Source of the DNA: an uncultured Rubrobacteraceae bacterium
GTDB taxonomy: Bacteria; Actinomycetota; Rubrobacteria; Rubrobacterales; Rubrobacteraceae
Assembly (NCBI GenBank): GCA_902806085.1
Contig: CADCVH010000115.1
Span: 1-62,024 of the forward strand
Direction: 5' to 3'
Length of the DNA: 62,024 bases
Part shown: piece after piece, positions 1,110 through 62,024 of the stretch
How the letters are laid out: each line of letters opens with the position of its first letter
Position numbering within the stretch: the stretch's first letter is position 1
The notes under the pieces: generated by a model
The model's input: the letters and a program-made list of their open reading frames with translations, nothing else
Told to the model about the DNA's origin: nothing
Databases searched by the model: none
Position numbers and translations under genes: made by a program

Positions 1110-4100
1110 CTAACCCTTCTTCCGCCGCAGGCCGCCCCTGAGGAGCGAGTAGCCGACGGGGACGACGAGCAGGGTCAGGAACGTCGAGGTGACGAGCCCC
1201 CCGATCACGGGTATCGCGAGGCTGCTGGAGATGAGCGCGCTCCCCCCACCGCCGAACCCGAACGCGAGGGGGACGAGGGCGAAGATGGTGGCCAGGGCCG
1301 TCATCAGGATCGGGCGCAACCTCGCGCGTCCCGCCTCGAAGATCGCGCCGTCCACCGTGTCGTGGCGCCCGCGGGCGTTCTGGGCGAAGTCCACGAGCAG
1401 GATCGCGTTCGAGACGACGATCCCGATCAGGAGCAAGACCCCCAAAAGCGCCGGCAGGGAGAGCGCCGTGCCGGTGACGAGCAGCGCCCCGAAGGCCCCG
1501 GCGGTCGTGAGCGGCACGGCGAGCAGGATGATCAGCGGCGTTACGAGGGAGCCGAAGAAGACGACCAGGATCAGGTACACCAGCACGAGCGCCACCCCGA
1601 TGGAGAGGATCAGGTTCCTGAAGCTCTCCTCGATGTCCTCGCTCTCCCCCCCGACGCCCGCTGTCACGCCGTCGGGCAGGTCCAGCCCGGGCAGCGCGGC
1701 GTTCACCTCGTTCGAGACGGAGCTGGTGTCCTCGGAGGTGATGGTGCCGGTAACGGTAACGGCCCGGTCCCCGTCGTCGCGGCTTATGGCCGACGGCGCT
1801 TGGACCTCCCTGACCTCCGCCACGTCCCCCACGGTCTGCCCGGACCCGAGGGGAAGCCCGCGGACCTCCTCGATGGAATCGACCGACCCCTCCGGCAGGC
1901 CGATGGCGACGGGCTCGTCGCCGAGCGTCACCTCCGAACCCGTCCCGCCGAGCAGGGTCCCGAGCGAGGTCGAGACGGCGCCCGGGGAGAGGCCCGCCTT
2001 TGCGGCGTCCCCGGCGTCGACGGAGACCTCTATCTCCGGGCTGACCTCCGATAGGTCGCTCTGGACGTTGGTCACGTCGTCGGTTCGGTCAAGCTCGTCT
2101 ACCACGGTCTCGGAGGCCCGCCTGAGCTCTTCCTCGGTGCCGCCGGTTATGGTGACCTCGATGCCGCCGGTCGGCGGGCCCTGCTGCAGGATCTGGACCT
2201 GGAAGCCCTCGCCGAAGCGGTCGCTTCCCTCCTCGGCCAGCCTGCTTAGGGTCTCCTGCACGTTGGCGTTCTCCCCGACCACGATGAACGCCTGGGCCTG
2301 GTTACCGGTACGCAAAGGGGCGTCGGGGTTGAAGTTGTCCTCGCCGCCGATGGAGAGCTGGTAGCTCTCCACGCCGCGGTCTTCGTTCATGAAGTCCTCG
2401 AAGGGCCGCAGCTCCTCGCTGGTCTCGCCGATGGCGGTCCCCGCCGGCAACTCCACAGTCGCCTGCAGGAGTCGCTCCTCGCTCGGCGGGAAGAAGCTGA
2501 CCGCGAGGAACGGTATCGCCGCCAGCCCCCCAACGAACGCCAGAAGCGCTATGAGGAGGACCGCGAGCCGGTGCCTAAGGCTCCACAGCAGCAGGGGCGC
2601 GTAGAGGTCGACGAGCAGGCCGTCCGAGCCCCCCCCGCGGCGGGCCGCCGAGCGCCTCGCCGCCCGCGCCGCGAGAACCGCCAGGCCGACGATCAGGAGC
2701 GCGGCCACCGCCCCCGCGACCACCAAAAAGACCGGCGAGCCCGTGTCTATCCCGCCGACGACGTTGCGCGCACCGTCCGAGATCCCGCCGAGACCCTCGA
2801 TGATGCCCGCCGGGATGAAGGACAACCCGTCGAGCAAGCCCGTTCCGGCCGCGACCACGGCCCCGACGAAGAGCAAGCCCAAGACCAGCAGCGAGAAGAC
2901 CAGCACCCTTGGCACGCCCGGACCGCGCCGGGTCCTGCGCGCGCGGCGGCCCCCATCCACCGGGTACTCGCCGTCCTCGTAATCCTCCGGAGACACCTCG
3001 CGGTCGTTCTCTTCCGTTCGCGGCTCCGGGACCGCCCCCCGTTTCGCCTGGCGCTTGATAAAGACGCTGGTGAGCACCGGGATGACGGTTATGGAGACGA
3101 TCAGGGAGGCGATCAGGGCGAAGGCCACGGTCAGGGAGAGCGGCAGGAAAAACTTGCTCACGATGCCGCCGACCAGCCCCAGGGGCAGGAAGACGGCGGT
3201 CGTGGTCAGCGTGGACGAGGTAATGGCGCTCGCCACCTCGTTCGTGCCCTTGAGGGCGGCCTCCTCGGGGCTGTAGCCCTCCTGCACGTAGCGGTAGGAG
3301 TTCTCAAGCACCACGATCGCGTCGTCCACCACGCGCCCGACGGCTATCGTGAGGCCCGCCAGGGTGATGATGTTCAACGTCAGGTTGTCCGCCCAGGAGA
3401 AGAGCAGGGCGGCCAGGATGGAGGTGGGCAGGGAGACGGCGGTGACCAGCGTGGCGCGCAAGGAGCGGAGGAAGAGGAAGATGATCCCGACGGCCAGAAG
3501 CCCGCCGATGAGCGCCTTCTCCACCAGCCCGTTCACCGACTCCTCGACGTCTTCGGCCGAGTTGAAGACCACGATCACCTCGTCCTCGCCAAGGTCCTCG
3601 CGCACCTGCCCTAGCGCCTGCGTAACGCCCTCGGCCACCTCGACGGTGTTCGCCTCCGGCTCCTTGACGACGTTGAGCCCGAGGCTGGGCTCCCCGTTTG
3701 TCCGGGAGACGCCCGAGATGTCCGAGCTCGCCTCCCCGACATCCGCCACGTCGGAGAGCAAGACCGGCTCGGGCGCCTCCGCCGCCGTAGGCGCCGCACC
3801 CGCCGGCGCGGGCGCAGCCGATGGCGGTGCGGACGCCCCAGTCGGGGCCCCGGCCGGAGCCCCCGTTGGAGCCCCCGCAGGCGCTCCCGTGGGCGCCCCT
3901 CCCGCGGGTGCTCCGGTGGGCGCTGCCGTGGGCGCTGCCGCGGCGCCGACGGGCAGGTCGCGGAGTTGTTCGACCGTGGTCAGCTCGCTCGTGGTGCGGA
4001 CGGGTGTGGAGAGGCCGTCCACGCTCACGTCGCCCACGGGCGCGTTCACGTTCGAGCCGGAGATGGCGCCGATTATCGCCTCGGCGGGGATGCCGCGCTC

Positions 4101-4679
4101 CTCGAGCTCGGCGGGCTTGAGGTCCACCTCAAGCTGCCGCTCGGAGCCCCCGACGAGGTCCGCGCTCGCCACGCCCTCGACGTCCTCGATGAGCGGTATG
4201 GCCTCGTCCTCGGCGTACTCGGTGACGCGGGCGAGGTCCCCGTCCTTTGCAGACAGGGAGACGTTCAGGATGGGGAACTGCGAGGCAGATTGGCGGTTCA
4301 CCTCGGGGGCGGCGGCCTGCTCGGGGAGGGAGACGCCGTTTATGGCGTCGTTGATCTCGTCCTCGGCCTGCTCGGTGTCCACGTCGAGCCCGAACTCCAC
4401 GACGAGCACGGAGAAGCCGGGCGAGCTCGTCGCCTGGACGCCCTCTATGCCCTCGATACCCTCGACGGAATCCTGCAAAGGCTGCGTGACCTGCTCGTCC
4501 ACGAGGTCGGGCCCGGCCCCCGCCACCGGTGTGGAGACGGTGATGAGCGGGAACTCGATGTCGGGCAACAACTCCTGGTTGAGCCGCGTCGTCGCGTATG
4601 AGCCGGCCCCTATGAGGATCACGGCCGCCAGGAAGACGACGGACTTGTTCTTCAGGCACCAGCGGACTATCGCCTGCAC
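1110..4679 (-). CDS. RND-family efflux transporter, inner-membrane permease (AcrB/Swr type)
   Basis: A 1189-residue proton-driven exporter of the HAE-RND kind. The N-terminus has TM1 and then periplasmic PN/PC-type sequence with TPVAGAGPDLVDEQVTQPLQ. Segment GRVVDDAIVVLENSYR is the hallmark TM4 acidic motif, and the C-terminal half repeats the architecture, ending with LIGIVVSNAILLVDFAQNAR. GTG start overlaps the marR stop by one base. Two oddities stand out. A Pro/Thr/Gly/Ala repeat of about 55 residues (roughly 247-303, built on GAPTGAPA) sits in the first periplasmic domain. An extra ~130-residue insert between TM6 and TM7 carries two additional hydrophobic segments. No membrane-fusion or outer-membrane partner is nearby, as expected for a Gram-positive. 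Substrate unknown. Confidence 0.9.
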   Translation of the reverse strand: MQAIVRWCLKNKSVVFLAAVILIGAGSYATTRLNQELLPDIEFPLITVSTPVAGAGPDLVDEQVTQPLQDSVEGIEGIEGVQATSSPGFSVLVVEFGLDVDTEQAEDEINDAINGVSLPEQAAAPEVNRQSASQFPILNVSLSAKDGDLARVTEYAEDEAIPLIEDVEGVASADLVGGSERQLEVDLKPAELEERGIPAEAIIGAISGSNVNAPVGDVSVDGLSTPVRTTSELTTVEQLRDLPVGAAAAPTAAPTGAPAGGAPTGAPAGAPTGAPAGAPTGASAPPSAAPAPAGAAPTAAEAPEPVLLSDVADVGEASSDISGVSRTNGEPSLGLNVVKEPEANTVEVAEGVTQALGQVREDLGEDEVIVVFNSAEDVEESVNGLVEKALIGGLLAVGIIFLFLRSLRATLVTAVSLPTSILAALLFSWADNLTLNIITLAGLTIAVGRVVDDAIVVLENSYRYVQEGYSPEEAALKGTNEVASAITSSTLTTTAVFLPLGLVGGIVSKFFLPLSLTVAFALIASLIVSITVIPVLTSVFIKRQAKRGAVPEPRTEENDREVSPEDYEDGEYPVDGGRRARRTRRGPGVPRVLVFSLLVLGLLFVGAVVAAGTGLLDGLSFIPAGIIEGLGGISDGARNVVGGIDTGSPVFLVVAGAVAALLIVGLAVLAARAARRSAARRGGGSDGLLVDLYAPLLLWSLRHRLAVLLIALLAFVGGLAAIPFLAVSFFPPSEERLLQATVELPAGTAIGETSEELRPFEDFMNEDRGVESYQLSIGGEDNFNPDAPLRTGNQAQAFIVVGENANVQETLSRLAEEGSDRFGEGFQVQILQQGPPTGGIEVTITGGTEEELRRASETVVDELDRTDDVTNVQSDLSEVSPEIEVSVDAGDAAKAGLSPGAVSTSLGTLLGGTGSEVTLGDEPVAIGLPEGSVDSIEEVRGLPLGSGQTVGDVAEVREVQAPSAISRDDGDRAVTVTGTITSEDTSSVSNEVNAALPGLDLPDGVTAGVGGESEDIEESFRNLILSIGVALVLVYLILVVFFGSLVTPLIILLAVPLTTAGAFGALLVTGTALSLPALLGVLLLIGIVVSNAILLVDFAQNARGRHDTVDGAIFEAGRARLRPILMTALATIFALVPLAFGFGGGGSALISSSLAIPVIGGLVTSTFLTLLVVPVGYSLLRGGLRRKKG
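3783..3953. repeat. coding tandem repeat (GAPTGAPA-type) inside the RND gene
   Basis: Degenerate 12-nt units encode alternating Gly-Ala-Pro-Thr/Ala in the periplasmic part of the exporter. Such a tract is prone to copy-number change and would behave as a flexible spacer between the PN and PC subdomains. Confidence 0.6.
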
Positions 4680-5167
4680 TAGTTTTCCTCCCCCGGCACC
4701 CGGCCGAGCGCCGCCGTGATCTCCTTGAGGCCCTTGTAGAAGGCCACCGCCTCTTCGTCCGTCAACGTGTCCAGCGCGGCGTTTAGCTGGGTGCGGCGCA
4801 CGCCCATGATCCTGCGCGCCACCTCGTGCATCCCCGGCGCGTAGTCGACCAGCACCACCCTCCTGTCCTCAGGGTCGTGGCGGCGCTCGATCATGCCGTG
4901 CTCCGAGAGCCTGTCCACGAGCTGCGTCGCGGCCGGCCGCGATACCCCCAGGGTGTGGGCGATGTGGCCGACCGAACACGGCCCCTTCGCGAGCGCTATG
5001 AGCACCTGTATGTGGCCCGGGGAGACGTGCGCGTCGGACGGAAAGGCGTGCGCGGGAGCCCCGGCCTTCACGGACGCCTCCAGCTCCAGCGGCACCGGCC
5101 GACCCAACTCACGCCCCAAAACCGGCAACAACAACACGATCTCGTCTACCAATCTCTCCCGGTCCAC
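4679..5167 (-). CDS. MarR-family transcriptional regulator
   Basis: Winged helix-turn-helix in the middle of the protein: CSVGHIAHTLGVSRPAATQL is the recognition region, followed by wing residues DPEDRRVVLV. It is the first gene of the operon with the RND exporter (stop/start overlap of 1 nt), so it probably represses the exporter in response to a ligand. I place the start at the GTG at 5167, which has GGACGGGAAG upstream. The frame stays open to a TTG at 5245, but that extension is AT-rich, uses TTA/AAT codons unlike the rest, and carries an inverted repeat that looks like the operator. The longer 188-aa form cannot be excluded. Confidence 0.85.
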   Translation of the reverse strand: MDRERLVDEIVLLLPVLGRELGRPVPLELEASVKAGAPAHAFPSDAHVSPGHIQVLIALAKGPCSVGHIAHTLGVSRPAATQLVDRLSEHGMIERRHDPEDRRVVLVDYAPGMHEVARRIMGVRRTQLNAALDTLTDEEAVAFYKGLKEITAALGRVPGEEN

Positions 5168-5192
5168 ACGCTTCCCGTCCAGTTCGGCTTCG

Positions 5193-5218
5193 TTAAGCGA
5201 CTTATTTAACCGCCTTAA
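5193..5218. promoter_or_regulatory. candidate MarR operator, imperfect inverted repeat
   Basis: TTAAGCG (5193) and CGCCTTAA (5211-5218) form an interrupted inverted repeat in an AT-rich island between the divergent marR and hydrolase genes. Autoregulation by MarR proteins at such sites is well known; here binding is inferred only. Confidence 0.5.
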
Positions 5219-5316
5219 TGATATGTGAGGTGATGGATCTGTCAAGGGATCTTCTCGCGGTCCGTGCAGATCGGGTACGATCCGGTCCGCCGAGGGTTTC
5301 GGAAGTGGGGAGGTTT

Positions 5317-6249
5317 ATGGTCAGGCTGAAGGCGGCCGTGGCGGCCGGTGTGGCGGGCGGGCTCTGGGCCCTCAATAACAGGTTAGAGAAGACGGCTCTC
5401 CCGGCGAGGCTGGGCGGTGAGGCCAGGCGTTACCGGTGGGGCGGCGGAAAGATAGCGTACTCCGTCGCCGGTGAGGGAGAGCCGCTGCTGCTCGTCCACG
5501 GCGTCTACGCCGGCGCGTCCTCGCTGGAGTTCCGCGCGAACTTCGAGGAGCTATCCAGGAGCTTCCGGGTGTACGCGTTGGACCTGCTGGGCTGCGGGTT
5601 CTCGCAAAAGCCCCGGCGGCGTTACGCGCCGGACGACGTGACGGGCCAGATCGAGGCGTTCGCGAGGGAGGAGATCGGGGCGGGAGCCCATCTCGTCGCG
5701 AGCTCCCTCTCCGCGGCCCTCGTCGTCCCGGCCGCCGTGCGCAACCCGAAGCTCTTCGAGAAGCTCGTCCTCGTCTGCCCCACCGGCTACGGCACCCTGG
5801 ACCGTCCCTCCGGCCTCCTCGGGGACGCCGTCTACGGCCTCTTCCGGGCGCCGGTCCTCGGCGACACCCTCTACCACGCCCTCGTCTCCCGGGCCGGCAT
5901 CCGCTACTACCTGGAGAAGATGGCCTACCACGACCCGCAGCTCGTGACCCAAGACGTCGTCGAGGACTACTACCGGGCCGGGCACGGGCCCGGGGCCAGG
6001 CACTTCCCGGCCGCCTTCGTGTCCGGGAAGCTGAACCTCGGGATCTCGGACCTCTGGCCCAGGGTGCCGCACAAGAGCCTCGTCTGCTGGGGCCAGGAGG
6101 CGAAAACCGTCCCCCTCTCGGACGGGAACAACTTTGCACGCAACAACCCGCGCGCCGAGCCCCGCGTCTTCAGGGACGCCGCCCTCCTCCCCCACGTCGA
6201 GCGGGCCGAGAGGTTCAACGAGGAAGTGCGGACGTTCTTGTCCGGTTGA
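5317..6249 (+). CDS. alpha/beta hydrolase
   Basis: An alpha/beta-hydrolase fold of about 310 residues. The oxyanion motif is LLLVHGVYAGASS, the nucleophile elbow region HLVASSLSAALVV, and LLPHVERAERFN near the end supplies the likely catalytic His. The elbow reads A-S-S-L-S rather than G-x-S-x-G, and the usual Asp position in the WGQEAKTVPL segment lacks a clear Asp, so the catalytic set is unusual. The ATG at 5317 has a strong GTGGGGAGG site; the frame is open further upstream but runs through the promoter region. It is divergent from marR, so it may be co-regulated by it. Confidence 0.8.
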   Translation: MVRLKAAVAAGVAGGLWALNNRLEKTALPARLGGEARRYRWGGGKIAYSVAGEGEPLLLVHGVYAGASSLEFRANFEELSRSFRVYALDLLGCGFSQKPRRRYAPDDVTGQIEAFAREEIGAGAHLVASSLSAALVVPAAVRNPKLFEKLVLVCPTGYGTLDRPSGLLGDAVYGLFRAPVLGDTLYHALVSRAGIRYYLEKMAYHDPQLVTQDVVEDYYRAGHGPGARHFPAAFVSGKLNLGISDLWPRVPHKSLVCWGQEAKTVPLSDGNNFARNNPRAEPRVFRDAALLPHVERAERFNEEVRTFLSG

Positions 6250-6276
6250 AGGCCGGGCCACGCCCCGATCGCCCCC

Positions 6277-6795
6277 TCAGGCCTCGCTCCGGCCGGCCCG
6301 AAGGACGTCGGGCTCCTGGAGGACGTGCATGCCGATCTCCCCAAAGAGGGCCACGGCGTCGCCCATGCCGCCTGGTATAGCCGGCCTGTCGGGCGGCGGG
6401 ATCGTGCGGGTGCGGGCGCGCTCCCCGAGCTCCGTGATCGTCCGCTCGAAGCCGGCAGGGGTGTAGGAGTTGAGTAGCGTCGCCGTCCGGGAGTCCACCC
6501 TGAAGGAGTGGACCGTGCCGCGCGGGATCAGCACGAAAGAGCCCGCCCCGGCCTTCAGCTCCCGACCGTTCGTCAGGTAGGTGATCTCGCCGTCGATGAC
6601 GAAGAACTGCTCGTCCTGGTCGTGGTGGTGGGGACCGGGACCGGAGCCCCTGGGACAGAGCTGCCACATCAGCGAGTAGGCGCCCCCGGTCTGCTCCCCG
6701 CTGGCGAGCACCACCCAAAGGATGCCGACCATCCAGTAGGCCGGCCCCTCTTCGACGGTGTCGACATACGGCGCCGCCTTCGGTTCTTCGTTCAT
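6277..6795 (-). CDS. cupin-domain protein
   Basis: Single-domain cupin. Motif 1 is GPGPHHHDQDEQFFVIDGE, with metal-binding His residues and a Glu, and motif 2 is GSFVLIPRGTVHSF, with the last His. The family includes quercetinase-like dioxygenases and sugar isomerases; substrate cannot be told. The ATG at 6795 has GGAGGAAC about 9 nt upstream, making the protein 172 residues; a longer reading frame upstream lacks such a site. It converges with the hydrolase and is followed upstream by the PPOX gene on the same strand with a gap of about 100 nt. Confidence 0.8.
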   Translation of the reverse strand: MNEEPKAAPYVDTVEEGPAYWMVGILWVVLASGEQTGGAYSLMWQLCPRGSGPGPHHHDQDEQFFVIDGEITYLTNGRELKAGAGSFVLIPRGTVHSFRVDSRTATLLNSYTPAGFERTITELGERARTRTIPPPDRPAIPGGMGDAVALFGEIGMHVLQEPDVLRAGRSEA

Positions 6796-6892
6796 CTGCC
6801 CGTTCCTCCTCGCCTGTTTGATGATCCTTCGGGGGCCGACCACCAGCCGGGACCGCCCATCGAGGCCGACCGCACCTCGGACAGCGGGGGAA

Positions 6893-7315
6893 CTAACCCA
6901 TGCCGCTGATCTTCTCGGGCTCTATGGCGATGATCACCCGCGCCTGCTCGCGCCCCCCGAACCAGGGGTAGGGCCCCCCCAAGCACTTCCCGGAGAGCCC
7001 CTCTATGTGATCGGCCCCGCCCTCCTCGGTGACCCACGCCACCCGCCCGCGCACCTGGAAGTAGCGGCGGGGGTCGGCGGGGTCCGAGACGGCCACGGCC
7101 ACGCGCGGGTCGCGCTCCACGTTCCTGACCTTCAGGAAGCCCCGGACGCTGTTGATGAGGACGCGCTCGCCGTCGGTGTCCACCCAGGTCTGGGTTAGCT
7201 GGGGCGAGCCGTCGGGCATGGTGGTGGCCACGTAGCAGGTGCTCGGTCGGCGCAGCAACTCCAGCAGGTTCCGGGGCAATTCCATGCGCGGTCTCCAATT
7301 CTTGGCCTCTGACAC
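6893..7315 (-). CDS. PPOX-class (pyridoxamine-oxidase-like split-barrel) flavin/F420 enzyme
   Basis: About 140 residues with the split-barrel pattern: LLRRPSTCYVATTMPDGSP, then WVDTDGERVLINSVRG, KVRNVERDPRVAVAV and RYFQVRGRVAWV. This matches actinobacterial PPOX-class F420- or FMN-dependent oxidoreductases and biliverdin reductase-like proteins. The GTG at 7315 has AAAGGAG 5 nt upstream; the TTG at 7333 abuts an operator-like palindrome and is less likely. It is divergent from a TetR gene, and the shared intergenic region carries two matching palindromes, so it is probably the TetR target. Confidence 0.8.
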   Translation of the reverse strand: MSEAKNWRPRMELPRNLLELLRRPSTCYVATTMPDGSPQLTQTWVDTDGERVLINSVRGFLKVRNVERDPRVAVAVSDPADPRRYFQVRGRVAWVTEEGGADHIEGLSGKCLGGPYPWFGGREQARVIIAIEPEKISGMG

Positions 7316-56396: not shown

Positions 56397-56885
56397 CTAC
56401 AACCTCCGCACGAGCACGGCGTTGCCAAGGAGCAGCAGCACCAGCTCGGAGACGGCTACCGAGCCGAAGGCGACGAGGTAGGGCAACCCGGCGACAAAGT
56501 GCAGCACCGTCGCCACGCCGGCGGAGATAACGAGGGCGAAGAGCGCGCTGGCGACGTACGTCCCGGCCCTTCCCCCGAGGCGGCGCGCGACGAGCCAGCA
56601 GAGGACGCCGCCCGCGAGGTTCACGACGGGCATGAGGAGGAGCTCCAGCCCGCCGGCCAACGGGCTGAACAGGTTGACGAGCCCCACCCCGACCGCGAAG
56701 GCGGGGATGGTCACCGGGTATTTTATGACCAGGGGCTTCAGGATCTCCCCGAGACGGAACTGCACGGGGCCGAAGGCGAGGGGTGCTATCAGCAGGCTCA
56801 ACACGACGTAGAGCGCCCCCACCACGCCGGCGATCGCGACCCTTCGGGCGGGGGTGTTCTTGGCGGAACTTTGCCGGGGCGTCAT
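56397..56885 (-). CDS. queT: QueT-family transporter (queuosine-precursor S component)
   Basis: 162 residues with about five TM helices. LAFGPVQFRLGEILKPLVIK and VGLVNLFSPLAGGLELLLMP match PF06177, the substrate-binding subunit of ECF transporters for queuosine precursors. Its ATG overlaps the stop of the GGT gene by 4 nt (ATGA), and queF follows, so GGT-queT-queF form one transcript. The energising EcfA/T genes are not in the window and are presumably shared elsewhere in the genome. Confidence 0.85.
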   Translation of the reverse strand: MTPRQSSAKNTPARRVAIAGVVGALYVVLSLLIAPLAFGPVQFRLGEILKPLVIKYPVTIPAFAVGVGLVNLFSPLAGGLELLLMPVVNLAGGVLCWLVARRLGGRAGTYVASALFALVISAGVATVLHFVAGLPYLVAFGSVAVSELVLLLLGNAVLVRRL

Positions 56886-58540
56886 CGGCCCCCGTCGCCG
56901 GCGTGCCCCGGGCCCTGGGCGAGGGCGCAGCCGTCTTTTCGGGGGTCGCTGCCGCAGGCGCGGACGCCGTCTTCGTGGACCCGGATCACCTGCGCCCCGC
57001 CCACCGGGACGACGTAGTCCTCCCCGACCTCGACCTCGTGCCCCTTCTCCTTGAGCCGCCCGACCTCCCGCTCCGGCAGGCGGCCCTCGACGAGCAGGGT
57101 GCCGTCGAGGTGGAGGTGGCGCGGGTGGTCCACGGCCTCCTGGGCGCTCATCCCGTGGTCTATGAGGTTCGAGAGGACCTGGGCGTGGCCCTGGGGCTGC
57201 ATCGGCCCGCCCATGTTCCCGAAGACGGCCCAGAGGGCGCCCTCGCGGGTGGCGAGGCCGGGGATAATCGTGTGCATCGGGCGCTTGCCGGGGGCGAGAC
57301 CGTTCGGGTGGTTCGGGTCGAGGCGGAAGGAGAAGCCCCGGTTCTGGAGGCAGACGCCGGTGCCGGGCGCCACGACGCCGCTGCCGAAGCCCATGTAGAG
57401 GCTGTTGATAAAGGAGCAGCCGTTGCCCTCCGCGTCCACGGCGCAGAGGTAGGTCGTATCCTCGCCTAAAGGTGGCTCGGCGGAGGCGACGGCCGCGCGG
57501 TCGGGGGAGACGTTCTCGCGCAGGGAGTCGGCGTAATCTTTAGAGATCAGGCGCCCCGTGGGTACCGGCGGGTCGCGCCAGAACTCGGGGTCGCCCACCT
57601 CTTTGTGCAGGTCCGCGTAGGCGAGCTTTTTGGCCTCGACCTCCAGGTGGACGCGGTCGGCGCCTGAAGGGTCGAGGGCGGCCAGGTCGAAGCCTTCGAG
57701 GATGTTGAGCATTTCCAGGGCCGCGATGCCCTGTCCGGGGGGCGGGATCTCGTAGACCCGCACGCCCCGGTAGTCCGTGGAGATGGGCTCGACCCACAGC
57801 GTCTCGTGGGCGGCGAGGTCCTCCTCGGCCAGATACCCGCCGGCACTCTGGGCGGCCTGGGCCATGCTGCGGGCGACGCGTCCGTTGTAGAAGGCGTCGG
57901 CCCCGCCCTCGGCGACGGCCGAGAGCGTGCCCGCTATGTCGGGCTGGGCGAAGACCTCGCCCGGCCGCGGGGCCCGTCCGTCCACGAGCAGCGTTTTCGC
58001 GGCGGCCTCGTTCCCGCGGAGCAGGTCCTCGGCCACCCCCCAGTAGCGGGCGAAGACCTCGGAGACGGGGAAGCCGTTCTCGGCTAGCTCGTAGGCGGGT
58101 TCCAGCAGGCGGGCGAGCGGCAGGTTGCCCAAAGAGTCCGCGGCGTCCTCCCAGAGCCGGACGGCGCCGGGGACCGTGATCGGCGGCCCGCCGCGCTCGG
58201 GCATCTCATCGAAACCAGCCCCCCGCAGCTTCTCGATGGTGGCCGCTTTCGGGGCGGCACCGGAGCCGTTCGCGCCGAGGACGCGGCCCGTGCCGGCCTC
58301 GTAGAAGAGCAGGAAGGCGTCCCCGCCCATGCCCGTCGCCATCGGGCCGACGACGGCCATCGCCGCGGCCATCGCCACGCAGGCGTCGGCCGCGGTCCCC
58401 CCCTCGTCCAGCACGCGCAGGCCGGCCAGCGCCGCGGAAGGGTGCTCGCAGGCGACCGCCCCGCGGGTGCCGAAGACCGTCGAGCGGCCCCCGCGGTCGG
58501 GGCGTCGGATATGGGCGGTGGTTTCTTCGCCTCGGAACAT
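56882..58540 (-). CDS. ggt: gamma-glutamyltransferase (Ntn-hydrolase)
   Basis: 552 residues. The large-subunit start RGAVACEHPSAALAGLRVLD and MGGDAFLLFY, and the autoprocessing site EDTTYLCAVDAEGNGCSFIN with Thr362 as the new N-terminus and nucleophile. The small subunit has SLYMGFGSGVV, FVLDPNHPNG-like RLDPNHPNGLAPGKRPMHT and FGNMGGPMQPQGH, all typical. It cleaves glutathione or transfers gamma-glutamyl groups. No clear signal peptide, so it may be cytoplasmic. It is the first gene of the GGT-QueT-QueF transcript. Confidence 0.93.
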   Translation of the reverse strand: MFRGEETTAHIRRPDRGGRSTVFGTRGAVACEHPSAALAGLRVLDEGGTAADACVAMAAAMAVVGPMATGMGGDAFLLFYEAGTGRVLGANGSGAAPKAATIEKLRGAGFDEMPERGGPPITVPGAVRLWEDAADSLGNLPLARLLEPAYELAENGFPVSEVFARYWGVAEDLLRGNEAAAKTLLVDGRAPRPGEVFAQPDIAGTLSAVAEGGADAFYNGRVARSMAQAAQSAGGYLAEEDLAAHETLWVEPISTDYRGVRVYEIPPPGQGIAALEMLNILEGFDLAALDPSGADRVHLEVEAKKLAYADLHKEVGDPEFWRDPPVPTGRLISKDYADSLRENVSPDRAAVASAEPPLGEDTTYLCAVDAEGNGCSFINSLYMGFGSGVVAPGTGVCLQNRGFSFRLDPNHPNGLAPGKRPMHTIIPGLATREGALWAVFGNMGGPMQPQGHAQVLSNLIDHGMSAQEAVDHPRHLHLDGTLLVEGRLPEREVGRLKEKGHEVEVGEDYVVPVGGAQVIRVHEDGVRACGSDPRKDGCALAQGPGHAGDGGR

Positions 58541-58900: not shown

Positions 58901-58990
58901 CTAGAGTCGCCCGAACTCCCTGAGAAGGTCGGCCAGCGGCACGCGTTTTACGATGGGGCGACCGTGCGGGCAGATGCTGACGTGACCTCC
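58901..58990 (-). pseudogene. mutL: 3' end of mutL, cut off by an integrative element
   Basis: Minus-strand codons up to the TAG at 58903 read GGHVSICPHGRPIVKRV, then ADLLREFGRL. This is the end of the MutL endonuclease domain: the C-P-H-G-R-P metal-site motif and closing F-x-R. Upstream, the sequence switches to the end of the serine recombinase, which shares these bases in another frame. The rest of mutL must lie beyond the element, outside the window. Residual MutL here would not be translated as such. Confidence 0.8.
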
Positions 58991-60681
58991 TTACGGTAAC
59001 CGCTGTCCCCCTCCAACGCCGTCGGGGGCCTTATCGGCATCTCCACCCAAGCCTCGCCATCCTTGACGAACACCTTGATACCGAGGATGCCGTAGAGCCG
59101 GTGCCGTTCCTCCGGTCCGAGGGACTCCAACACCTCCGGCGCTAGGGCGGCGTAGTGGCTCACGACGGCATCCCTGTCGCGTTCGAGGCGCTCCAGCTCC
59201 TCCCTGTGGCCCCTGAGCGCTTCCAGTTCGCTCTCCGCGGTCGCGCGGCGTTGGCCCAACGCGGCGAGTTTCTCCCGCAGCCTGTCGAAGCCGAGCAGGC
59301 CCTCGGCCGCCTGGTCGTGGTAACCGTCCCTCATCCGTTCCAGCTTGGCGAGCTCGTCCGCCCAGACCTTGGCTTCCTTCTGTGGGTCGCCGTGCTTATC
59401 CGCCCGCTTTAGCTCGATCATACGGTCGAGGTCCTTGGCGAGCTCTTCGGGTTCCGTCATCACCCCGCGCACGAAGGTCCAGACTTTAGCTTCGAGCACC
59501 AATGCAGAAACTGTCCGCCCGTTCGAGCAACTCTCCTCCCCGTGGTCGTGGCGCGCCGCGCAGCGATAGTAGCCGTAGCGGCGTGGCCCGCTCTTGCGCC
59601 GCTTGGTTCTGCTCAAGACCCTCATCCGGCGCCCGCACTCCCCACAGCGGGCCACGCCGCCGGAGAGCTGCCAGAACCTGTCCCCGGCGCCCGACGGCAC
59701 ACGGTTGCCCTTCACGGCTTCCCGTGCAGCGTCGGCGACCTCGCGCGGGACCCCGGAGTCGGGCACCGGCACGGCGATCCACTCCTCCTTGGGCTTGGTG
59801 TAGGAGGAGTACTTCCGTCCATAGCGCCTGCCATCCACGGACGACTCGGAGACCTGACGGCTCGTCATCTTGCGGCGGTTGAACCACCATAATCCGTACT
59901 TCACCGCGGGGTCCAGACGGCCCGCAACCTCCGGCGAGACCACGGCCGCCACCTCCTCAAACGAGTGGGGCCTGTAGACGTCGTCCAAGACGCAGTTTCG
60001 GAAGAACGAGCGGTCCCAAAACCTGGCGCCCCTCGGCGTCGGCACGCCCTCCCCTTCCAGCTCCAGCTTTATCGACCGCAGCGTGGCGCCCTCGGCCACC
60101 TCGCGGAAGATCCGCCGCACGACGCGCATCCTGTCCCCGTCCACCTCGTAGCCGTCGCGAGAGGCGTTGGCCTTGAACCCGTACCTCGGCGAGCGGCCGG
60201 CCATGACCTTGCCTTGTCGGGCTTTCTGGAGCCTGCCCCTCCGCGTCCTCTCCGTTATCTTCGCCCGCTCGAACTTCGCTAGCTGGTCGAGGATGCCGTC
60301 CGTGAGCTCCCCCTCAGGCGTGTCGTCGCCGCGGTCGTTGAGGGCGCGGATCTTCGTGCCGTGCTCGACGAACTCTCGACGGAGAAGGTAATGGTAAGCG
60401 GGCTCCCGGGCGAAACGGTCCCGGTCTTGGGCGAGCACGACGGATACACCACCAGAGGACACGAGGTCCCTCACGCGGTCCATGCCGGGCCTCTCCAAAG
60501 ACGCCCCGCTTTGGCCCGGATCGGAAACCTCTTCTAGGATCTCGTAGCCTTCCGCCGCGGCATAGCCACGAAGGGCCTCTAGCTGCTGGGCGAGCGAGTA
60601 CCCGCTTTTAGCCTGCTCTTCTGTGGAGACGCGGGCGTACAGGATCGCACGGTGCGGCCCGTAACCGTTCGTGGAAGTCAT
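58948..60681 (-). CDS. large serine recombinase (integrase)
   Basis: 577 residues. Resolvase domain with catalytic Ser19 in ILYARVSTEEQAKSGYSLAQ, Arg residues in QDRDRFAREPAYHYLLRREF and ELTDGILDQLAKFERAKITE. A recombinase domain follows (SPRYGFKANASRDGYEVDGD), then a zinc ribbon (CGECGRRM, YRCAARHDHGEESC) and a coiled coil (about 440-530) as in phage integrases. The last codons are read through the att site into mutL sequence. ATG 60681 is 2 bp after the repressor stop with AGGAAAATAG before it. Single-step site-specific integration. Confidence 0.92.
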   Translation of the reverse strand: MTSTNGYGPHRAILYARVSTEEQAKSGYSLAQQLEALRGYAAAEGYEILEEVSDPGQSGASLERPGMDRVRDLVSSGGVSVVLAQDRDRFAREPAYHYLLRREFVEHGTKIRALNDRGDDTPEGELTDGILDQLAKFERAKITERTRRGRLQKARQGKVMAGRSPRYGFKANASRDGYEVDGDRMRVVRRIFREVAEGATLRSIKLELEGEGVPTPRGARFWDRSFFRNCVLDDVYRPHSFEEVAAVVSPEVAGRLDPAVKYGLWWFNRRKMTSRQVSESSVDGRRYGRKYSSYTKPKEEWIAVPVPDSGVPREVADAAREAVKGNRVPSGAGDRFWQLSGGVARCGECGRRMRVLSRTKRRKSGPRRYGYYRCAARHDHGEESCSNGRTVSALVLEAKVWTFVRGVMTEPEELAKDLDRMIELKRADKHGDPQKEAKVWADELAKLERMRDGYHDQAAEGLLGFDRLREKLAALGQRRATAESELEALRGHREELERLERDRDAVVSHYAALAPEVLESLGPEERHRLYGILGIKVFVKDGEAWVEMPIRPPTALEGDSGYRKEVTSASARTVAPS

Positions 60682-60683
60682 GG

Positions 60684-60872
60684 CTATTTTCCTGCGAGCT
60701 CGGAGGGCGCAACGCCGAAGGCCTTGGCGAGTTTGCGGATCGTTGATGGGTGAGCGTTCGTGCTCGTGCCGCTCTCTAAGCGCCATATCGTGTCCTTCGA
60801 TACGCCCGCAGCCTCCGCCAGTTCGCGCAGAGACATGACGTGCTCCGCGCGAAGCTCCTTGACCTTACTCAC
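60684..60872 (-). CDS. small XRE-family repressor
   Basis: 62 residues. KVKELRAEHVMSLRELAEAA, GVSKDTIWRLESGTSTN and HPSTIRKLAKAFGVAPSELA form a complete Cro/CI-like HTH. GTG at 60872 has GGAGGTCAAC upstream; a frame back to 60920 would use the promoter region. It overlaps its own promoter region with the divergent gene and sits directly before the integrase, so it likely controls excision or element genes. Confidence 0.85.
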   Translation of the reverse strand: MSKVKELRAEHVMSLRELAEAAGVSKDTIWRLESGTSTNAHPSTIRKLAKAFGVAPSELAGK

Positions 60873-60919
60873 GTTGACCTCCATGTCTAGCTTTGTACCG
60901 ACGTCGTCTACTGGGAGCA

Positions 60920-60976
60920 ATTATACCCACGATATTCAGACAATACTAGACAAAACAGTTATGAATGCGGTACAAT
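60920..60976. promoter_or_regulatory. divergent promoters with AGACAA repeats
   Basis: Rightward: TAGACA (60947-60952), 18-bp spacer, TACAAT (60971-60976). Leftward: minus-strand TATAAT at 60925-60920. Two AGACAA copies (60938 and 60948, 10 bp apart) overlap both, as repressor operators usually do. Confidence 0.6.
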
Positions 60977-61056
60977 GGTTCCATCGGACAAAGAAACGGC
61001 CCCGGCGAGTGCGCCAACACTCCCGAGGCCCGGCCCACACAGACTTGGAGGTCACT

Positions 61057-61374
61057 GTGGACAGCAAGAGTCTAGCCCACGAAGGGCGTTCCCGTTTCGT
61101 CGGTCCCGAGTTCTGCCAAGAGCTTTCCGAGCTTACCGGTATCGAACTCGGCGTCCTCAATTCCGCCTTCGCCGGCGAGCGCGTGAACGCGGCCCTCGAC
61201 GCAGTGAAGACGGTCGTCGCCGAGAACCTCGATAAGGGCCCAGAAGACTGGACGGAGATCCTCCGGGAGCGCGCCAAGGCCGAAGGGCTCGGCCAGTACC
61301 GGCCCGGCTACTGGGACGGCTACGAGCTCACCTGGGAGCACAACGAGCACCTGAGGAGGATCGGGCGGCTCTAG
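61057..61374 (+). CDS. uncharacterised element protein, 105 aa
   Basis: GTG with TTGGAGGTCACT upstream. Soluble, acidic: FVGPEFCQELSELTGIELGV, LNSAFAGERVNAALDAVKTV and YRPGYWDGYELTWEHNEHLR. No family recognised. First gene rightward from the repressor, under the promoter at 60947-60976. Confidence 0.65.
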   Translation: MDSKSLAHEGRSRFVGPEFCQELSELTGIELGVLNSAFAGERVNAALDAVKTVVAENLDKGPEDWTEILRERAKAEGLGQYRPGYWDGYELTWEHNEHLRRIGRL

Positions 61375-61468
61375 GGCCGCCGGTACTGTTAGCCGATGAA
61401 CAGGCAGAGAGGCCCGCCTGTACGGGCGCTTGGACGATTCAAACGACGACAACAAAGAGGAGAGAAGA

Positions 61469-61846
61469 GTGCTTATCGAGCTGTGGAGAAAAGAGACGGT
61501 GGAACAGTACTCCGTCACGCCGTGCGTGATTTGCGGCAACGACTTCGAGCTGGGCAGCGTGTTCCCGATGGTCTACGGCGACCGCGGTCAGGAGCTTGGG
61601 GAGATGTGCCCGGTGTGTCTGGATTACCTCGACCGGCGCAGGGCGGACGTTGACGATCCGACGCTCGGCAATTGGCCGGCGCGGAACTGGCCCACGCTGA
61701 AGGACCTCGAGGAGGCTCGACGGCGTTTCCCAGAGCCCATGTTCGAGACTAGCGACGACATGTGCGCGTTCGCCGTGGACTTCGAGGCGGACGAGAGGCT
61801 CACTAGGGAGACCATCCTCTGGCCCATGGAGCGGGAGAAGGTCTAG
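61469..61846 (+). CDS. uncharacterised element protein with C-x2-C zinc-ribbon motifs
   Basis: 125 residues. VTPCVICGNDFELGSVFPMV and GEMCPVCLDYLDRRRADVDD give a likely Cys4 zinc site at about residues 18-52. The C-terminal half has DLEEARRRFPEPMFE and FAVDFEADERLTRE. Family not recognised. GTG 61469 has GAGGAGAGAAGA; TTG 61430 is an alternative. Confidence 0.65.
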   Translation: MLIELWRKETVEQYSVTPCVICGNDFELGSVFPMVYGDRGQELGEMCPVCLDYLDRRRADVDDPTLGNWPARNWPTLKDLEEARRRFPEPMFETSDDMCAFAVDFEADERLTRETILWPMEREKV

Positions 61847-61867
61847 CTCTCAGCTATCAGTAACACC

Positions 61868-61904
61868 CGGGCCGGGGTATCCTTCGGGGTGTCCCGGCCC
61901 CGGA
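61868..61904 (+). terminator. GC-rich hairpin, possible terminator
   Basis: CCGGGCCGGG pairs with CCCGGCCCCGG (one bulge) with a small inner loop, followed by CGTTTGTGTG. A weak terminator candidate after the gene ending at 61846. Confidence 0.5.
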
Positions 61905-61973
61905 CGTTTGTGTGGCGGTCGAGTATGGGTAGAAGGCGGGTGCAGACACACGAACCTAACGGAGGGACAAAAG

Positions 61974-62024
61974 ATGTCCGAACAGTCTAGGCAGCCCAAG
62001 GACAAGAACTACAACCTCATCGCC
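61974..62024 (+). CDS. start of a further element gene (cut by window edge)
   Basis: ATG with ACGGAGGGACAAAAG before it. Only 17 codons (MSEQSRQPKDKNYNLIA) are visible. The polar start and context fit a mobile-element gene; no family is assigned. Confidence 0.6.
   Translation, partial: MSEQSRQPKDKNYNLIA

Follow-up and report, generated by a model that had tools for sequence, protein, structure and literature searches.

A serine-recombinase element in the mutS-adjacent mutL paralog of an uncultured Rubrobacteraceae bacterium: probably a decayed gene, not a mutator switch

At the right edge of a contig from an uncultured Rubrobacteraceae bacterium, the gene of a large serine recombinase runs into the last codons of a mutL, which raises the question of whether excision of the recombinase element could restore a working mismatch-repair gene or whether this gene is beyond rebuilding. 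The window, i.e., the whole stretch of DNA that was analysed (62,024 nucleotides), is one entire contig (G000:C115) of an assembly with 133 contigs and an estimated contamination of 4.55%. We consider it highly likely (roughly 85%) that the insertion of an element of ca. 3.8 kb, accompanied by a deletion, disrupted a dispensable mutL paralog, and that the locus is a decayed gene and not a switch.

A mutL terminus beside a serine recombinase

The features of the window on which the argument rests are:

56882-58540, minus strand: gamma-glutamyltransferase (GGT)-like gene downstream of mutL2, a synteny anchor outside the element (genome G006 has the same order, mutS-mutL2-GGT)
58901-58978, minus strand: what is left of the mutL2 3' end (25 codons and TAG), without a start codon and with an in-frame stop upstream; defined by its translation, by 88% identity to MutL2 residues 506-530 and by the end of DNA homology
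58974-58977: left junction between mutL2 and the element, its exact base placed to within 1-3 bp by comparison with the intact genes of G003, G005, G006, G012 and G030
58948-60681, minus strand: large serine recombinase gene (ATG at 60681, stop at 58950-58948, 577 aa), whose ca. 9 last codons and stop belong to mutL2 DNA and are read in a different frame from mutL2 (Pfam Resolvase, Recombinase and Zn_ribbon_recom; homologs in the family)
60684-60920, minus strand: HTH regulator of the XRE/Cro type, encoded upstream of and in the same direction as the recombinase (HTH_3, E = 1.7e-12)
61057-61374, plus strand: small element ORF (ca. 105 aa) without a Pfam family, with a homolog in the element on contig C101
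61469-61846, plus strand: small element ORF (ca. 126-138 aa) with two CxxC pairs and without a Pfam family (ORF list, Pfam search)
61974-62024, plus strand: start of a 72-aa cargo ORF without a Pfam family, running on to contig C98 (C98:77-295), with a homolog in the C101 element
61898-62024: exact overlap with the first 127 bases of contig C98, where the element continues (to ca. C98:869) and is followed by ca. 380 bp of filler and by the mutL2 N-terminal half

The split gene is mutL2, the second mutL, located beside mutS. Its tail codons occupy 58978-58904 of the minus strand and read as ...SICPHGRPIVKRVPLADLLREFGRL, with the TAG stop at 58903-58901, and the resulting 25 C-terminal residues (CPHGRP...FGRL) match the end of a relative's 530-aa MutL2 with E = 2.6e-7. 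The first-pass annotation, made from the letters alone, had recognized a minus-strand MutL end with CPHGRP and FxR at this edge and had the last recombinase codons crossing the junction; both readings held, as the recombinase ORF does end within the mutL piece. Homology of the mutL2 DNA to intact relatives extends from the stop to 58974/58975 with none beyond, and the mutL2 piece is joined to the recombinase at 58975/58976.

The recombinase has the domain make-up of the large serine recombinase class (Resolvase, Recombinase and zinc ribbon in ca. 500-600 aa), with Pfam matches at E = 1.5e-32 (Resolvase), 2.4e-13 (Zn_ribbon_recom) and 1.9e-6 (Recombinase). Its ORF appears intact, and its product may be active in integration and excision. 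Homologs occur across the family at 38-74% identity; viral contigs scanned with the recombinase held no close relative and those scanned with MutL2 gave one weak 39-residue match, while all matches in the phages and plasmids searched remained below 60% identity. No conjugation genes were seen in the window's element. Recombinases of the same clade share a conserved end and diverge immediately after it, the pattern that an attachment site directly downstream of the gene would give, and relatives of the window's recombinase also read into other genes at this end. Because of this divergence, and because in the rumA elements of streptococci integrase and target are known to swap 3' ends (see below), the left border is plausibly the natural attachment end of the recombinase.

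Other serine recombinases were seen along the way. The 3' ends of two of them (L084, G061:C29; L086, G004:C283) are in frame with the C-terminus of a TPR protein, i.e., integrase and target are apparently fused. The genome of the window carries a second serine-recombinase element (L112, G000:C101:46000-58000, positions 2624-7186) within an ORF that looks restriction-modification-like by eye (without a Pfam match), and a further serine recombinase gene (G000:C83:25793-27406) that contains an in-frame TGA and is probably a pseudogene.

The right side and the missing middle of mutL2

From the 127-bp overlap and the synteny across the two contigs we infer that C115 joins C98, where small ORFs (77-295 and 511-798), the filler, the N-terminal half of mutL2, a VapBC-like pair and mutS follow in this order. 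A 0.9-kb block of the C101 element, 89% identical, spans the join and reaches C98:869, which argues for the join as well as for an element size of ca. 3.8 kb. The contamination estimate and the number of contigs could speak for a misjoin, or for fragments from different organisms. We regard such an artefact as very unlikely, given that the contig overlap is exact, that one and the same relative aligns to both flanks, in unchanged order and at 84-88% DNA identity, and that the second element in this genome spans the join.

The N-terminal half (C98:2346-1153, minus strand, 397 aa, of which the last ca. 31 residues are foreign) encodes MutL2 residues 2-366/368. The remaining mutL is thus located past the right end of the element, where the first-pass annotation had placed it. 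Extension to the right recovered this half only; the middle of the gene and a right attachment site did not turn up. MutL2 residues ca. 369-505 (ca. 140 residues, ca. 420 bp) were found nowhere in the assembly, the best match being MutL1 at 40% identity, and the lost part takes in the bulk of the endonuclease domain, with DQHGAHE and DQHGAHERILYE. The absence of these ca. 420 bp might in principle reflect an assembly gap, considering the fragmented and slightly contaminated assembly. A predicted ATPase-domain protein of 397 aa with a foreign tail could still be produced from the N-terminal half.

The right end of the element, as judged from its other copies, is not sharp, with homology ending variously at C98 positions 800, 811, 812 and 869, and the ca. 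380-bp filler beyond matches no known family and is without relatives in the 39 genomes. Comparison of the two borders for shared att-like arms gave 11/24 matches, a value equalled by 40% of random pairs. An attL/attR pair with a short common core and exact rejoining of the target is not what the locus presents, with ca. 420 bp of the target absent and the right flank made up of unrelated filler; such a structure may have existed at the original insertion, before the deletion.

The VapBC-like pair between mutS and mutL2 is present in some genomes (G000:C98 (L034), 2343-2777 and 2784-2978, minus strand; G062:C117 (L105), 2985-3434). A PIN domain was matched in the G062 pair (E = 1.8e-7); by eye, the C98 copy resembles it, and its own Pfam match is not PIN. 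Unlike in the genomes with this pair, mutS and mutL2 overlap in G006.

Two mutL paralogs, one of them repeatedly broken

The family has two mutL genes, mutL1 in nearly all genomes and mutL2 adjoining the only close mutS, and the interrupted gene is the latter. In the window's genome mutS is intact and so is MutL1 (597 aa, encoded on C94), and an uninterrupted mutL2 of the kind sought in related genomes was found in the same-genus G006, where it encodes 530 aa. The endonuclease-type motif set (DQHx(x)2E(x)4E, CPHGRP, FxR) is present in MutL2, with DQHGAHERILYE, CPHGRP and FGR in nearly all 17 intact genes aligned. MutL1 motifs are deviant but uniform across the family (L001, L003-L031), with DQHVAHERxxLD, ACH and CPHGRS and without FxR, and it is the MutL2 set that is standard. 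According to one report (PMC5290159), MutS-MutL is present in Rubrobacteria and NucS is not; no NucS match reached E 0.001 in the window's genome. Repair may be kept up by MutS and MutL1. G005 has an additional mutS copy (G005:C61 (L128), 483-2840), which may stem from contamination; the 4.5 kb that follow it hold no mutL2.

These results bear directly on the switch that had been proposed, in which excision by attL x attR recombination restores a working mutL. The recombinase looks intact, mutL2 adjoins the only mutS, and SpyCI of Streptococcus pyogenes provides a precedent (PMC3430984). Yet, because residues ca. 369-505 are absent, removal of the element would leave mutL2 without its endonuclease core; moreover, filler separates the element-like DNA from the N-terminal half, the border arms are no closer than random pairs, and the paralog that was hit has an intact counterpart, a finding that the first-pass annotation itself had named as speaking against its proposal. 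We thus consider a reversible switch extremely improbable, and for the assembled state it is refuted, as excision cannot rebuild mutL2 and MutL1 is intact. What stands of the earlier interpretation is that the element parts the CPHGRP/FxR end from the rest of mutL. How misleading a conspicuous junction at the end of a contig can be is seen here, where the neighbouring contig and the relatives turn the supposed switch into a decayed paralog.

For this decayed paralog we propose the following history. The element, with its large serine recombinase, XRE regulator and few small ORFs, would have entered mutL2 beside mutS, leaving the end of the recombinase gene adjoining the CPHGRP codons. During or after the insertion ca. 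420 bp of mutL2 (residues ca. 366 to ca. 505) would have been lost along with the right border of the element. The 58975/58976 border would then be the natural end of the element and the deletion would lie on the opposite side, insertion presumably preceding deletion.

Loss of mutL2 is seen elsewhere in the family. The gene is intact in 18 of the 39 genomes, many of the others ending at contig edges and not being scorable, and in at least three other genomes it is broken or missing beside mutS with mutL1 kept. It is broken in G002, G062 and G034 (the last with a frameshift at residue 78 and an end at residue 186), and missing in G020, where mutS and ca. 700 bp beyond it are present. The breaks of three genomes, which represent two genera, lie within ca. 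6 codons of one another, i.e., G000 after residue 366, G062 at 367/368 and G002 at 367-371. The chance of three out of five breakpoints clustering in this way is roughly 0.4%, by a rough hand estimate for a pattern noticed afterwards.

This cluster hints at an insertion hotspot, which we treat as a lead only. The window's element may have entered mutL2 at a recurrent attachment site at residues 366-371, with a later deletion shifting the left border to CPHGRP. The near-coincidence of the three breaks argues for this course, as does a serine recombinase ca. 1 kb from the G002 break, and we nevertheless hold it to be unlikely. The breaks are not base-identical, the G002 border being blurred over ca. 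12 bp, and the G002 recombinase gene faces away from mutL2 and is followed by sequence that is not mutL2. G062 shows no recombinase in the 1.9 kb visible and its one element ORF is not common to the others. The region is also a domain start, the elements differ, and all five breakpoints were examined post hoc. A common AT core for G002 and G062 was considered and dropped after codon-level inspection, the G002 border not being exact.

Somewhat more doubtful still is the general form of this idea, in which the start of the MutL2 C-terminal domain would be a recurrent attachment site across an actinobacterial family, where elements repeatedly remove the endonuclease domain from the MutS-paired MutL and leave an ATPase fragment. 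If true, the hotspot would mean that integrative elements also target a mismatch-repair gene, and the MutL2 losses would form a natural series for probing the role of the second MutL.

Comparison with known systems

SpyCI, a phage-like island, sits at the 5' end of mutL, and its excision restores mutL transcription (PMC3430984, PMC4689407). It resembles the window's locus in that a mobile element interrupts the mutS-mutL region. Unlike SpyCI, the window holds a serine-recombinase element of ca. 3.8 kb in the C-terminal third of a paralog, away from the 5' end, and the gene is partly deleted and would not be restored by excision.

Rubrobacter radiotolerans RSPS-4, with two mutL (RradSPS_0036 and RradSPS_0159) and mutS at RradSPS_0158 (PMC4148983), resembles the window's family in that one mutL adjoins the only mutS; unlike for the window, no mutL interruption is reported for it (PMC4148983).

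For the junction itself, a parallel is offered by the single-serine-integrase ICEs in streptococcal rumA, conjugative elements in which integrase and target exchange 3' ends and which are bounded by direct repeats of 2-21 bp (PMC4701971). In contrast to these, neither defined direct repeats nor conjugation genes were found in the window's element. What the two have in common is an integrase gene whose 3' end lies at the junction and takes its last codons from the target gene in a different frame.
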